Part shown: positions 4,060 to 36,455 of the stretch, in pieces
Numbering within the stretch: position 1 is the stretch's first letter
Layout of the letters: each line of letters starts with the position of its first letter
IMG/VR virus record: IMGVR_UViG_3300025759_000269
Coordinates: 1 to 36,455 of that record
Length of the DNA: 36,455 bases
Direction: 5' to 3' (one strand)
From: a virus
Notes under the pieces: model-generated
What the model was told of the DNA's origin: nothing
Seen by the model: only the letters and a program-made list of their open reading frames with translations
The model's database searches: none
Program-made: the position numbers and the translations under genes

Positions 4060-4487
4060 ACTTTGCAGGCGTAGCACAGGCAATCCGAGCGCGGCTGGCG
4101 GGCGATGCTACGCTATCGGCGTTGACGACATACGTCGGCTATGACAAGCCGCAGGACACCAAGCCGGAAAGCATGGTTCCTTTTCCGTTCACTGTCATTG
4201 AGGACGTGAGCGCAACGCCTTGGGATACTAAGACCAGCGACGGCGGCGAACAGCTTATACAGGTCACGACCTTTGCGCGGCCTACAGCAAGCCGGAGCGC
4301 AATTGACCTCGCAGACGCAGCGGCGCAGGCGACATATGACGCGCTGCATGATTTTGACTTGGTGGTAAGCGGTTCCAATGTAGTAAATTGCCTGTTCGAT
4401 AGCAGTCCCGGCAACATACCGGACCCAGACGGCTTTACGCGATACAGGCCGCTAACCTTCCGCATTCAATATGACAGCGGCGCGTGA
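4056..4487 (+). CDS. DUF3168-type tail terminator-like protein
   Basis: This 143-residue protein has the layout of DUF3168 proteins: an N-terminal helix (FAGVAQAIRARLAGD), a strand with FPFTVIEDVSATPW, a central strand ending QVTTFARP, and a long helix that contains AAAQATYDAL. These proteins cap the growing tail tube and fix tail length together with the tape measure. It is the last gene before the intergenic promoter at 4485-4526, and its stop codon forms the first bases of that promoter element. Confidence 0.8.
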   Translation: MNFAGVAQAIRARLAGDATLSALTTYVGYDKPQDTKPESMVPFPFTVIEDVSATPWDTKTSDGGEQLIQVTTFARPTASRSAIDLADAAAQATYDALHDFDLVVSGSNVVNCLFDSSPGNIPDPDGFTRYRPLTFRIQYDSGA

Positions 4488-4526
4488 CTTTGCAGATTTG
4501 CAGTTGCGTGGTATAACTTTGCAAAG
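4485..4526 (+). promoter_or_regulatory. Late promoter with TTTGCA operators, upstream of the tail tube gene
   Basis: TTTGCA occurs at 4489 and 4497 (8-base spacing) and again at 4518 inside the perfect palindrome CTTTGCAAAG (4517-4526). TTGCAG (4490-4495) as -35, a 16-base spacer, and TGGTATAAC as extended -10 make a sigma70-like promoter. The first 31 bases match the element at 35662 in 28 positions, so this is a repeated phage control element, probably promoter plus operator. Confidence 0.75.
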
Positions 4527-4546: not shown

Positions 4547-4948
4547 ATGGCAGCAGAAAGTGGACGCGACCTCCGGGTTGAATATGCGTCAGATGGTTCG
4601 ACATATGTAGTCGTGGCGGGCGCTCGAACCGACAGCCTGACATTCAACAACGAAGCAATCGACATCACCGACAAGGATGATGCTGGCGTGCGGACGTATC
4701 TGGATGACGTAGCAGTCAAGTCTATGTCGCTGTCTTGCACAGGCGTGGCGACAGCCTCGACGTTCTCTGCACTTGCGGCAGCGGCAACGGCATCATCGGC
4801 GCTCCATGCGTTTCGCGTGTCGTTCGGCAGTTTTGCAACGTACACAGGTTCGTTCTTCATCACCTCTTTCGAGGCGACAGGCGAGCAGGCCGACACAATC
4901 ACGTTCACGCTTTCGCTGGAAAGCAGCGGCGCGATTACGGCTTCCTGA
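4547..4948 (+). CDS. Major tail tube protein (TP901-1 type)
   Basis: This 133-residue protein polymerises into the flexible tail tube. It has the short beta-sandwich layout of TP901-1-type tail proteins: start GRDLRVEYASDG, a TDSLTFNNEAIDITDKDDAGVR stretch broken by turns, SLSCTGVAT, and a C-terminal FTLSLESSGAIT strand (the motif that closes most tail tube proteins of this family). It has its own promoter immediately upstream, as expected for an abundant structural protein, and an AAAGGGC ribosome site about 8 bases before the ATG. Its stop overlaps the next start (TGATG). Confidence 0.88.
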   Translation: MAAESGRDLRVEYASDGSTYVVVAGARTDSLTFNNEAIDITDKDDAGVRTYLDDVAVKSMSLSCTGVATASTFSALAAAATASSALHAFRVSFGSFATYTGSFFITSFEATGEQADTITFTLSLESSGAITAS

Positions 4949-20327: not shown

Positions 20328-20379
20328 GGTCGTTTCCCTATCTAATGGCGCGGTGGCCGTTGTTGATAGGTAGAGATTA

Positions 20380-20440
20380 CGCATTGCCGGATGCGATGTA
20401 AACAGAAAAATTGCGCTTTACAAAAAATAATTTGCGCAAT
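20380..20440. promoter_or_regulatory. Divergent control region with inverted repeats (operator candidate)
   Basis: Between leftward and rightward early genes there is ATTGCGC (20410-20416) inverted as GCGCAAT (20434-20440), the latter inside the palindrome TTGCGCAA, and a second inverted repeat CGCAT (20380-20384) with ATGCG (20391-20395). The spacer is A/T-rich. This should hold the two early promoters and the binding sites of the Cro-like protein encoded next. Exact -10/-35 boxes are not clear. Confidence 0.65.
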
Positions 20441-20451
20441 AAGGTGCTGGC

Positions 20452-20682
20452 ATGGAAACAGCACAGACACAATTAAAGACTTGGGTTCAGCGCGAAGGGC
20501 GCAAATTGTCATGGCTTGCACAGCAAGTTCCGGTTGGCAGTTCGCACCTTTCACGTTGGATGCAGGGCCACGTCGTGCCGCGCGAGATTTACCGCGTGCG
20601 CTTGGCGCAGATAACAGGACTTAACATCGCTGGTGACGCAGAATGGCGTGCTGGCCTCAACGAAGGGAAAGACCATGACTGA
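20452..20682 (+). CDS. Cro-like helix-turn-helix regulator
   Basis: This 76-residue protein has a helix-turn-helix of the Cro/XRE type: LKTWVQREGRKLSWLAQQV, then VGSSHLSRWMQG as recognition helix, and REIYRVRLAQITGL. It is the first gene of the rightward early operon and lies beside the inverted repeats at 20380-20440, its likely operators. A short AAGG site lies about 9 bases before the ATG. No CI-type repressor with a dimerisation domain was found in the window. The end overlaps the next gene by 8 bases. Confidence 0.78.
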   Translation: METAQTQLKTWVQREGRKLSWLAQQVPVGSSHLSRWMQGHVVPREIYRVRLAQITGLNIAGDAEWRAGLNEGKDHD

Positions 20683-24950: not shown

Positions 24951-25483
24951 TGGACTTCAACGAAAGAAAGCGACAGGCGCAGAAAATGTTGATAGATTTT
25001 CTCAGCGTATTTTCAGCGCCTAGGGGGCTGGATGAAAGTCAAATGGCAAACCGCATCACGCAGATTGCCGACGCCTTTGCCCGAAGGATGCCGACGAAAT
25101 CAGATTACGAGGCGTCGGTGCAGGCTGTTCTGCGCAAGGTGATGGATACTCACCTTAGCAACACATGGCCTCCGCAGGCCGCGTTCGTTATGGCCATGCC
25201 AAACCGAGAACTGCGCGAGTTTCAGGCGCAGGAGACGTTTAAGCCAGATGATCCGATGCAGCACGCTATTAATCGCATGGAGGCGGGGCAACACGTTCCA
25301 GAGCCTGTCCTTTGGGGCGCTACGTCTGGCCAACTGCCTCACAGGCATCTTGACCGATACCGCAACGCATCAGTTTTGAACTGGATGAGCGTTTACGGGT
25401 CAGACGCCGCAGAAAAGATGAGGGCGAGATATGGCGAGATTGTTAACGCATACTTTCCAGAGAGGGCAGCAAATGGGCGTTGA
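24947..25483 (+). CDS. Putative replication accessory protein
   Basis: This 178-residue protein is helical and soluble. The segment NRITQIADAFARRMPTKSDYEASVQAVLRK followed by NTWPPQAAFVMAM, in separate pieces, resembles the helicase-loader (lambda P-like) pattern in which a WPxPxxF motif follows helices, and the position after an origin-binding-like gene fits. There is no Walker motif, so it is not a DnaC-type loader. The assignment is tentative. ATGATG at 24947 overlaps the previous stop; either ATG may be used. Confidence 0.5.
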   Translation: MMDFNERKRQAQKMLIDFLSVFSAPRGLDESQMANRITQIADAFARRMPTKSDYEASVQAVLRKVMDTHLSNTWPPQAAFVMAMPNRELREFQAQETFKPDDPMQHAINRMEAGQHVPEPVLWGATSGQLPHRHLDRYRNASVLNWMSVYGSDAAEKMRARYGEIVNAYFPERAANGR

Positions 25484-26156
25484 GGCAATTCCGTTCAACA
25501 AGGGACAAGTTGGAAAGTCGCGGGCTTTGATTGTTTGCGATGATTGCTCCCATTCGGTTGAAGTTCCGTGCTCATATCTCAACGCAACAGGCCCAAAGGG
25601 CCATCAGCCAAACGTCTCACAAGCGCGAGGCAGAGCACTCGGTATGGGCTGGACATACGTTAAATCGAAACTGCGCTGCCCAACATGCGAAGAAAAAAGA
25701 AAGGTCGTTCCAATGAAATTCAATAAGCAGCCAGCAGCGCCAAAAGAGCCGACAAAGCGCCAGCGGATTGAAATCTTTACTATGCTCGCCGAGTGCTACG
25801 ACATTGACGCTGGCCGCTATCAAAGGGGCGATACTGATGAGACAATCGCAGATGTGTTGGGCGTAATGCCCGGATGGGTGTCTCAGATAAGAGAGGCTGA
25901 GTTTGGGCCTGACGGCGGGAATCAGGACATTGAATCGCTCGCGGCAAAAATCGACGATATGCTCAAAGAAATGGAGGGCATTAAGGGCGACTGTTTGGCC
26001 ATTCAAAAGGACGCAGAGTCAATCATTAAGATGGCAAAAACAGCACTAGACAGCAATGAAAAGAAATTGGCCGAGGTGTCGGTTATGAAGTCCGAACTTG
26101 AGCAGATTAAAAAAGCGGTTGGGCCGCGCACGCTTAAAGCTGCGGGGTGCAAGTAA
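25473..26156 (+). CDS. Zinc-finger and coiled-coil protein
   Basis: This 227-residue protein has an N-terminal zinc ribbon with CDDCSHSVEVPC and RCPTCEEKRK, a helix-turn-helix-like middle (ETIADVLGVMPGWVSQIREAEFG), and a C-terminal coiled coil of about 80 residues (LAAKIDDMLKEMEGI, AKTALDSNEKKLAEV). It may bind DNA and organise the replication region. GAGGG lies 6 bases before the ATG at 25473, so the longer frame from 25431 is not needed. No known family was recognised. Confidence 0.65.
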   Translation: MGVEAIPFNKGQVGKSRALIVCDDCSHSVEVPCSYLNATGPKGHQPNVSQARGRALGMGWTYVKSKLRCPTCEEKRKVVPMKFNKQPAAPKEPTKRQRIEIFTMLAECYDIDAGRYQRGDTDETIADVLGVMPGWVSQIREAEFGPDGGNQDIESLAAKIDDMLKEMEGIKGDCLAIQKDAESIIKMAKTALDSNEKKLAEVSVMKSELEQIKKAVGPRTLKAAGCK

Positions 26157-26670: not shown

Positions 26671-26724
26671 TGCTTTGCAAGTTTGCAGGTCAGTTTGCAG
26701 TTTTGCAGATTGCACCCTGACCTG
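26671..26724 (+). promoter_or_regulatory. Four TTTGCA boxes with inverted repeat (operator candidate)
   Basis: TTTGCA occurs at 26674, 26682, 26694 and 26702, two pairs of boxes each with 8-base spacing, as in the late promoters at 4485 and 35662. CAGGTCAG (26686-26693) and CTGACCTG (26717-26724) form a perfect inverted repeat around the second pair. No good -10 box is seen, so it is probably a regulator binding site, perhaps controlling the helicase operon. Confidence 0.6.
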
Positions 26725-26742
26725 TGAATGATAGCATCAGAA

Positions 26743-26796
26743 CGCACGGCCTAGGTTAGCTACCGAACACCGGCCCTCCTCCCGGCTGGCCGTGCG
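26743..26796 (+). other. Structured leader of the helicase gene
   Basis: CGCACGGCC (26743-26751) and GGCCGTGCG (26788-26796) are perfect 9-base arms enclosing 36 bases that include GGT-TAGCT-ACC. A strong AGGAGG site follows near 26817-26823. The hairpin lies in the untranslated leader of the helicase-methyltransferase operon. It may be a terminator, an RNA-stability element or a regulatory leader; no riboswitch class was recognised. Confidence 0.45.
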
Positions 26797-26826
26797 CGAA
26801 ACAGGGGAGAAGCGATAGGAGGTCGC

Positions 26827-29207: not shown

Positions 29208-29804
29208 ATGATTACAGCATACAGCGTCAAGCCCCGCATCTCTCGCATTCAAGAGAGCAAGCCGAAGCCGCAATTCGCCAACCTTGATGAACTCATCGCC
29301 GCGATGAAGGAGGATGCCAAAGAAATCAGCAAACGGCACAACAAAGAGCGTCCACCAGTGCAAGAGGCGCGTGGACCAATCGCAGAGGCTAGGGTGTTTG
29401 ATTTTGTCAGAGAGAACCCCGGCGCATCGGTTCACGAGATAGCAGCGCATTTTAACCGTGAGCCGAAATCTATCGCCAGTCTTCTGAGCCGGATGGAGGA
29501 ACGCAACACCGTTAAGGCGTCAATGCGCAAGAACCCAACGACAGGGCGACCAATGAGATGCTTCACAATTGCGCAGGAGCCACAAGAGAAAATCGGAGTA
29601 AGGCTCAGTCCGGTGCGGGATAAGCTGGTGGCGTTCATCAAGGCAAACCCCGGATGCACCACGGCAAATGTCGCAAAATACATGGAGTGCAGTACAAAAT
29701 CGGCAGCGGACAAAATCGCCTTTGCACGAAAGACAATCAACATTGTTTCGAAGCGCACGGGGCCAAGCGCAAACGCGATGTCAGCGCATTGGGTGGAAGA
29801 ATGA
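29208..29804 (+). CDS. Double winged-helix DNA-binding protein
   Basis: This 198-residue protein has two helix-turn-helix segments: residues 60-115 (VFDFVRENPGASVHEIAAHF, then IASLLSRMEERNTV and a wing with TGRPMRCF) and about 135-185 (LVAFIKANPGCTTANVAKYM, then AADKIAFARKTINIV). The first 50 residues are basic and probably disordered. The tandem winged helices suggest a transcription or replication regulator, perhaps of the late genes further right. No specific family was recognised. Confidence 0.7.
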   Translation: MITAYSVKPRISRIQESKPKPQFANLDELIAAMKEDAKEISKRHNKERPPVQEARGPIAEARVFDFVRENPGASVHEIAAHFNREPKSIASLLSRMEERNTVKASMRKNPTTGRPMRCFTIAQEPQEKIGVRLSPVRDKLVAFIKANPGCTTANVAKYMECSTKSAADKIAFARKTINIVSKRTGPSANAMSAHWVEE

Positions 29805-34747: not shown

Positions 34748-35577
34748 TGGCGCGAAAGCCCGCATTCATCAGCCACAGCCCTGAGCGCGAAGCTGCCATT
34801 CAGTCGCGGCTGTTGAACGTCCTAGAGGCGCGTTTTCGGCGCAAGATTGCAAGCGTGGTGGCAGACGAGAGCCGACGCTATCTGTCAGCATATCGAGAAC
34901 TTGGCTACATCCCCGCACAGTCAGATGAAGACGTGGCTGAGTTTCGGCGCTTGTATGAGCAGATGGGACTAGAGACCGTCCGAACATTCGGGGCGCGTGT
35001 CGTCAGTCAGGGCAAGGCGCTGGGCTACGACCTCGAAGCAAAGCAGGAAGGCGGGTTTGCTGCACTGTTCCGGTCGCTGGCGTTGCTCTGGGTTAATCAG
35101 GAAGCCATCCGGCGGCGCATCACGGGGGTAACTGAAACAACGCGGGCGCGGATTGTCGGCGAGGTTGCACGGGGCCAGCAGGATGGCTTGGGCGTTGCTG
35201 AAATTGCCAAGGGCATCAACAAGCGCGTGCCTGCTATATCGCGGGCGAGAGGTGCGCTCATCGCTCGAACCGAAACGCACGGCGCTGCAAACTTCGCCAT
35301 GCACGAGACCGCCAAGTCCACCGGGCTTGAGTTGGAAAAAGAATGGGTGGCGACCGAGGATATGCGGACGCGAACATTCAACAAAGAAGACCCAGATGAA
35401 TATGACCATATCGCAATGCACGGTCAGAAGAGGGCGATGGATGAGCCGTTTTCTATGCCTTGGATTGGCGGGCCGGACCTGTTGATTATGTATCCCGGCG
35501 AGGCAGGCAAGCCGGGGGCGGCTGTCATAAATTGTAGATGCGCTTCAATCCAGCGCGTGGTCGGGCTTGACGACTAA
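34747..35577 (+). CDS. Mu F-like minor head / head morphogenesis protein
   Basis: This 276-residue protein is a minor head protein that works with the portal. It has the Mu F C-terminal domain: RGALIARTETHGAANFAM, a region with WVATEDMRTRTF, DHIAMHGQK, LLIMYPGEAG and the ending VINCRCAS, which is the family hallmark. The N-terminal 120 residues are helical. A GTG at 34744 is also in frame, but the ATG at 34747 follows the portal stop by overlap. It is followed by a terminator, so the packaging operon ends here. Confidence 0.9.
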   Translation: MARKPAFISHSPEREAAIQSRLLNVLEARFRRKIASVVADESRRYLSAYRELGYIPAQSDEDVAEFRRLYEQMGLETVRTFGARVVSQGKALGYDLEAKQEGGFAALFRSLALLWVNQEAIRRRITGVTETTRARIVGEVARGQQDGLGVAEIAKGINKRVPAISRARGALIARTETHGAANFAMHETAKSTGLELEKEWVATEDMRTRTFNKEDPDEYDHIAMHGQKRAMDEPFSMPWIGGPDLLIMYPGEAGKPGAAVINCRCASIQRVVGLDD

Positions 35578-35623: not shown

Positions 35624-35649
35624 AGGCCGCCTTCTGGCGGTCTTTTTTT
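35624..35649 (+). terminator. Rho-independent terminator after the packaging operon
   Basis: AGGCCGCC (35624-35631) and GGCGGTCT (35636-35643) form an 8-base-pair stem (one G-T) with a TTCT loop, followed by a T-run to 35649. It separates the terminase-portal-MuF transcript from the promoter for protease and capsid. Confidence 0.92.
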
Positions 35650-35661
35650 GTGCCTGAGCCA

Positions 35662-35704
35662 TGACTTTGCAACTTTGCAGTTTCGTGGTATATAGTTTGC
35701 AAAG
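35662..35704 (+). promoter_or_regulatory. Late promoter with TTTGCA operators, upstream of protease and capsid
   Basis: TTTGCA at 35666 and 35674 (8-base spacing), TTGCAA as -35, a 16-base spacer, extended -10 TGGTATATA, and TTTGCAAA at 35696-35703. It matches the element at 4485 in 28 of the first 31 bases, and the last part has one additional base. It sits directly after a terminator and in front of the capsid genes. Confidence 0.78.
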
Positions 35705-35744
35705 GCCGTTGTGAAACGTCCGAAGCCCTTAGATGGAGCCTTAC

Positions 35745-36455
35745 ATGCTGCGCAATTACGCACGCAAAGACGGTGGCGAACCGCTTGAAACCAAGCTGGC
35801 GCACGGACTGACAATCAAGTCCGAAGGCGAGAGCGAAGAATATCTTGAAATTATGGGCTACGGCTCAGTGTTCGGCAACCGCGACAACGGCGGTGATATT
35901 GTGATGCCGGGCGCTTTCAAGGAGTGCATCGCATCCGGTCGGCGCGTGAAGATGCTTTGGCAGCACGACGCAAGCCAGCCAATCGGCGTCTGGGATGAGA
36001 TGTCCGAAGATGAGAACGGCCTGCGCATGAAGGGCCGCGTTGCCAAGAAAGGCAAAGGTGGCGAGGTTGCGGAACTCATCAAGATGGGCGCGGTCGAAGG
36101 TTTGAGCATCGGCTATCGTACACAAGAATACGAAATGGACATGGACGAAGGGTCACGCAAGCTGACCAAGCTGGACCTGTGGGAAACCAGCGTCGTGACA
36201 TTTCCGATGAATGAATTGGCTGGCATCTACGCGATGAAAGCCGACGAGATTACACAGCGCGACCTAGAACGCGCGTTCAAGAATATGGGTCACTCGAATC
36301 GCATGGCGAAGGCTATGGCGGGTGGCGCATGGAAGGCACGGGCCGAGGTTCTGCGGGACGCAGACGCGGGCGTTCCTGAGCAGGTTCAACGGGACGTTGA
36401 CGAACTCAAAGCACTTTTGACTGAAACCCTGCAAACAATTGGAGGACGCAATGTC
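35745..36455 (+). CDS. Prohead protease (HK97 type), continues across the circular junction
   Basis: This gene encodes 237 residues up to the window edge, where its last codon is directly followed by the stop seen at 119-121 on the other side of the junction. The protease cleaves the scaffold domain from the capsid protein during maturation. Family features: MGYGSVFGNRDNGGDIVMPG, LWQHDASQPIG with catalytic His74, VEGLSIGYR with Ser121, and ETSVVTFPMN. GGAG lies 6 bases before the ATG at 35745; an in-frame ATG at 35733 lacks a good ribosome site. Confidence 0.93.
   Translation, partial: MLRNYARKDGGEPLETKLAHGLTIKSEGESEEYLEIMGYGSVFGNRDNGGDIVMPGAFKECIASGRRVKMLWQHDASQPIGVWDEMSEDENGLRMKGRVAKKGKGGEVAELIKMGAVEGLSIGYRTQEYEMDMDEGSRKLTKLDLWETSVVTFPMNELAGIYAMKADEITQRDLERAFKNMGHSNRMAKAMAGGAWKARAEVLRDADAGVPEQVQRDVDELKALLTETLQTIGGRNV
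36338..36455. repeat. Terminal direct repeat, right copy
   Basis: This is the same 118 bases as at 1-118, with G instead of A at 36356. It is the overlap end of a circular assembly or a circularly permuted genome. The difference is synonymous in the protease gene. Confidence 0.95.

Follow-up and report, generated by a model that had tools for sequence, protein, structure and literature searches.

On balance, our analysis favours the reading that the TTTGCA boxes of this phage genome form an operator recognized by a single DNA-binding protein, which would control three promoters and most likely repress the late ones. From the sequence we infer both that a single protein binds all the boxes and that it represses the late promoters. 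In the proposed arrangement, the protein would control an early promoter in the ssb/int-alpA/helicase region together with two structural promoters, one for protease-capsid and one for tail tube, and its probable role is to coordinate expression of the capsid and tail genes with that of the early genes. A single regulator would thereby connect the early and late promoters within one genome.

We analyzed a stretch of 36,455 nucleotides, hereafter the window, which is a whole genome carrying a 118-bp direct repeat at its ends (1-118 and 36338-36455, one mismatch). Among annotated phages, those of Roseobacter and Paracoccus are closest to it. Unless stated otherwise, features are given on the plus strand. 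The record is cut inside the prohead protease gene (35745-36455, continuing at the window start), which spans the end junction. Promoter 2 is followed first by this gene and then by the capsid gene (102-1340, major head protein by PHROGs). The tail tube (major tail protein) gene (4547-4948; PHROG 1407, E 1.2e-23) is the first behind promoter 1. The preliminary description had placed two similar sites in front of these genes, and PHROGs confirmed the gene identities.

Comparison of the two late sites (4485-4526 and 35662-35704) showed that 28 of their first 31 bases are identical, and their elements follow the order first described: two TTTGCA boxes with starts 8 bases apart, then TGGTATA, then TTTGCAAA. 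In the tail-tube promoter (promoter 1), box 1 (4489-4494) and box 2 (4497-4502) are followed by the extended -10 TGGTATAAC (4509-4517) and by box 3, the palindromic TTTGCAAA (4518-4525, minus strand), which we read as an inverted half-site over the predicted +1. The protease-capsid promoter (promoter 2), with an intrinsic terminator directly upstream (35624-35649), contains box 1 (35666-35671), box 2 (35674-35679), the extended -10 TGGTATATA (35686-35694), and box 3, again TTTGCAAA over the predicted +1 (35696-35703, minus strand). Box 1 also serves as the -35 hexamer, separated from the -10 by a 16-bp spacer; at the tail-tube promoter, the -35-like TTGCAG occupies 4490-4495. In both TGGTATAAC and TGGTATATA, TG lies one base 5' of a TATAAT-like -10, as in sigma-70 extended -10 promoters. 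A 5' leader hairpin with a GTGA loop (35704-35727; GGCCGTTGTGAAACG...GCC) precedes the protease gene, and among relatives two pairs covary in a compensated manner over seven leaders, with all cells paired.

The occurrence of the boxes in the window was then compared with expectation. TTTGCA alone was not enriched (32 found vs 36 expected). The pair TTTGCA-N2-TTTGCA was found four times on one strand vs 0.05 expected; none of 100 dinucleotide shuffles reached four, and Markov simulation gave an expectation of 0.017. Two of the four pairs make up a third site (26674-26715), absent from the preliminary description, which lies directly after the ssb stop codon, between ssb and the helicase gene. 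It holds five direct boxes, with starts at 26674, 26682, 26694 and 26702 and TTGCA at 26710 (offsets 0, 8, 20, 28, 35). The first four boxes (26674-26709) are upstream of the -35, while the predicted core of promoter 3 (26710-26737) consists of TTGCAC (the fifth box, serving as -35), 16 bp, and TAGCAT (-10), a spacing retained in G025, L196 and L195. The array offsets are retained in G025, L196-L199, G028 and L189, and G025 keeps them although its flanks differ.

The int-alpA RNA (26744-26807) was identified behind promoter 3 as a full-length member of a known RNA family (Rfam RF02996), scoring 43.9 bits against a gathering threshold of 35.8 over model positions 1-71 of 71. It starts 7 bp after the -10, so its 5' end falls on the predicted promoter 3 start and independently supports transcription initiation there. 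Nine further records contain the RNA, mostly with boxes upstream, and its occurrences include G002, G013, G028, G038-G041, G044 and a contig of a metagenome-assembled genome (MAG). The literature searched contained no earlier description of TTTGCA boxes, including those before int-alpA RNA. As the third array is predicted to drive an early operon, the original proposal of a phage-specific late promoter under one protein needs amending: a phage-associated promoter of the extended -10 type that serves both the capsid and the tail-tube operon and recurs in relatives is supported, while use of the term in a late-only sense is not.

To follow the sites in relatives, we scanned IMG/VR for two boxes plus TGnTATA and obtained 105 stretches, which, after removal of near-duplicates, gave 29 distinct sites with a downstream box-like element. 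The late sites follow a constant layout, in which two direct boxes with 8-bp spacing are separated by 6 bp from TGnTATA, and one or two inverted boxes lie downstream of it. The gap between box 2 and TG was 6 bp in 26 of the 29 sites; the presence of TGnTATA in all 29 is a consequence of the pattern design. The base n was evenly spread (C8, T7, G7, A7), and this randomness is characteristic of an extended -10 and not of shared ancestry alone. It also bears on whether the late sites could be sigma-54 promoters (-24 GG, -12 GC), with the TTTGCA at +1 serving as the -12 element. Site 2 does show the TGG-N10-GC spacing, but site 1 has 9 instead of 10, and with a random base after TG the GG is not conserved over the 29 sites, which makes this reading extremely improbable. 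The inverted half-site GCAAA occupied at least one of two downstream positions in 21 of 21 clear sites vs 0.26 of 21 after downstream shuffling, a figure that shows position and does not prove presence, since the list had been pre-filtered for a downstream element.

The late-promoter version recurs in IMG/VR ahead of genes for the protease or the tail tube. Phages with the motif have homologous but distant structural modules, with capsid identity to the window ranging from 98% down to 34% by direct frame comparison, and most of these phages carry the same late element before the protease, down to the 34% level. When tail-tube homologues were collected by protein sequence alone, ignoring DNA, 26 of 34 retained the site; loss of the boxes from close relatives, which would have spoken against the original proposal, was thus not what we observed. 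The site therefore offers a searchable, geometry-defined promoter for the capsid and tail operons of uncultivated phages. A reversed control pattern gave no matches in 37 contigs. Many loose-pattern matches falling within coding or AT-rich regions, among them L008, L021 and L041, are probably due to chance, and no paired boxes were found in the isolates CRP-831, Shpa, RcapNL, pCB2047-A and three Manatee Spring phages.

The strict pattern was absent from 84,980 bacterial genomes, except for two window-like phage contigs (L144, L145) in one MAG labelled Verrucomicrobiales. Elsewhere in its 5.9 Mb, that MAG held no box pairs, and four-box arrays were found in none of 56 relatives; on these grounds the two contigs look mis-binned, and Verrucomicrobia were rejected as host. 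The same search bears on whether the site is a temperate-phage immunity operator: the strict site occurs in bacterial genomes only in the phage contigs of this one MAG, and neither a cognate repressor nor such a prophage was found.

Several relatives provide natural operator swaps on a constant core promoter. The early locus of L195 (L195:560-730) has flanks 92-96% identical to those of L196-L198, but its boxes are replaced by AAGCATTGCGCTATCGCTTTGATGC, the -10 is untouched, and no TTTGCA is present. In G030 and G031, whose capsid protein is 78-80% identical to that of the window, TGTGATATAT of the tube promoter is immediately preceded by a GCATCAAGTTGATGC palindrome. Their protease promoter retains box 1 and the downstream TTTGCAAA and also contains ATGCCCA and TGGGCAT arms. 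The tube promoter of G034 retains TGTGATAA without any boxes. In the swapped relatives, then, the operator alone changes while the predicted core promoter stays; the extended -10 of the tail-tube promoter is likewise retained where boxes are swapped. The replacement of the boxes by other operators on the same -10 is as expected for the target of a regulator, and the pairs L195 vs L196-L198 and G030/G031 provide a means to find the missing one.

The position of the boxes suggests how such a regulator might act. The late operator would be composite: its direct boxes cover the -35 and the spacer, its inverted boxes cover +1 and the bases past it, and the two groups flank the extended -10. Because the late boxes cover the -35, the spacer and +1, repression is favoured as the simplest reading: bound protein would keep RNA polymerase off the late promoters, and its removal or dilution would lift the block. 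Box pairs about two helical turns apart in the early array (20-22 bp) or three in the late sites (about 32 bp) would place bound units on one helix face. The boxes of promoter 3 speak against the preferred reading, as their position upstream of the -35 is typical of activator sites; activation is therefore allowed there, and the protein may activate or autoregulate at this promoter.

Activation at the late promoters was considered as an alternative, with a phage protein on and upstream of the -35 that would recruit host RNA polymerase. The -35 elements are poor at all three promoters, and the box-free int-alpA promoter of L208 has a consensus TTGACA -35, which suggests that boxed int-alpA promoters need help; both points, like the upstream boxes of promoter 3, agree with activation. 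However, a half-site covers +1 at the late promoters, an extended -10 would be expected to function with no activator, and the box-free tube promoter of G034 retains its TGTGATAA. We therefore consider activator sites unlikely at the late promoters and keep repression as the preferred reading.

We next considered which phage protein could bind the boxes. The helix-turn-helix (HTH) proteins at 20452 and 26156, put forward earlier as possible regulators, were discarded: both are absent from G028, which has the same sites as the window and 98% of the capsid protein sequence in common with it. In place of the XRE gene at 20452, G028 has a ribbon-helix-helix (RHH) gene preceded by its own TTTACG repeats, and the protein at 25431-26156 has no relative in any contig, G028 included. 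The third protein suggested, a tandem winged-HTH protein (29208-29804), is a doubtful candidate. Its family is the only detected sequence-specific DNA-binding family common to the close TTTGCA relatives of the window, and its two winged-HTH domains match the paired boxes, so that each domain would read one direct box. In G002 and L069/L196-L199 the early array lies directly before its gene, and weak homologues occur in the further TTTGCA phages L076, L019 and G029. Yet the L195 protein is near-identical in the DNA-binding domains although the boxes in the promoter of that gene have been replaced, L191 and L194 have the gene without visible boxes, and no homologue was found in the long TTTGCA contigs G008, G021 and G013 or in any INPHARED phage. 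We consider it quite improbable that this protein is the binder.

Other families were also rejected. The HTH_3 family has no member common to the TTTGCA phages, and DnaA domain IV proteins were found only in G025, G041, phiGT1 and MW202613. GapR-like proteins are not known to be sequence-specific, and although widespread in these phages they are absent from the window. Small GapR-like proteins (PF10073, according to the record's own note) were seen near ssb in phiGT1 (L216:28154-28384), G028, G025, G002, G021, G019, L195 and L197. Overall, no DNA-binding protein common to all TTTGCA phages was detected, which counts against a model with one shared regulator.

This negative result would be explained if the binder were a host protein exploited by many Rhodobacterales phages, each of which would need the operator alone. 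The phage phiGT1, a lytic podophage infecting Sulfitobacter (PMC10386132), has unrelated structural genes and carries two intergenic TTTGCA clusters of three boxes each (L216:34365-34392 and 35446-35472), where 0.02 pairs are expected. Four-box arrays are also present in further unrelated phage contigs. These occurrences make a host protein a serious, though not the preferred, possibility. Against it, a phage-encoded partner explains operator swaps between near-identical phages more easily, and the known alphaproteobacterial candidates, PraR and PhaR, do not fit. PraR, CdxA and TgrL are conserved alphaproteobacterial host XRE regulators with phage homologues, including in phiCbK (PMC10688885, PMC4149787, PMC5527310). 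A TTGCAA motif, resembling the boxes, has been reported for R. leguminosarum PraR (PMC4149787), but its SELEX consensus CAAC-N5-GTTG (PMC5527310) is absent from the three window sites and differs from a TTTGCA direct repeat. The PhaR operator is TGCRNYGCASMA (PMC6201568), and the window boxes are 8 bp apart, not 6 as in that sequence. Tentatively, HK97-type siphophages and a P22-like podophage, unrelated to each other but all infecting marine and saline Alphaproteobacteria, might time early and structural genes through a common TTTGCA array and a common regulator, either encoded by the host or freely exchanged. Should the binder come from the host, phage timing would depend on host physiology in Rhodobacterales, which can be tested directly with phiGT1 and its Sulfitobacter host. 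On a contig of 75 kb, a further four-box array (L233:2821-2857) separates two divergent genes without assigned function.

Comparison with known systems showed partial likenesses. Repressors of the mycobacteriophage L5/BPs type use dispersed operators and stoperators, asymmetric single sites of about 13 bp. Shared with the arrangement proposed here are many identical sites over early and late regions for one phage protein and close relatives that differ in operator, whereas in the window arrays of 6-bp boxes are built into promoters; no integrase or immunity repressor was shown for this phage. RHH proteins bind cooperative arrays of tandem 8-bp (MetJ) or 7-bp (omega repressor) boxes, and the window sites resemble these in their short direct or inverted boxes with a period of 7-8 bp; in contrast, the RHH gene of G028, L197, G025 and G019, which the window lacks, adjoins its own TTTACG repeats. 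The gene transfer agent (GTA) of Caulobacter is a phage-like element of Alphaproteobacteria whose structural cluster is likewise controlled by a dedicated regulator, its promoter being activated by GafY/GafZ, but the GafZ element GCGCCCG-CTGGCGC between -10 and -35 and the need for IHF (PMC11150451) are unlike the window sites. Separately, a divergent early-control locus with the XRE gene and an ATTGCGC/GCGCAAT inverted repeat was observed at 20340-20682 of the window, and G028, L221, L197 and G025 have an RHH gene with TTTACG repeats in its place.
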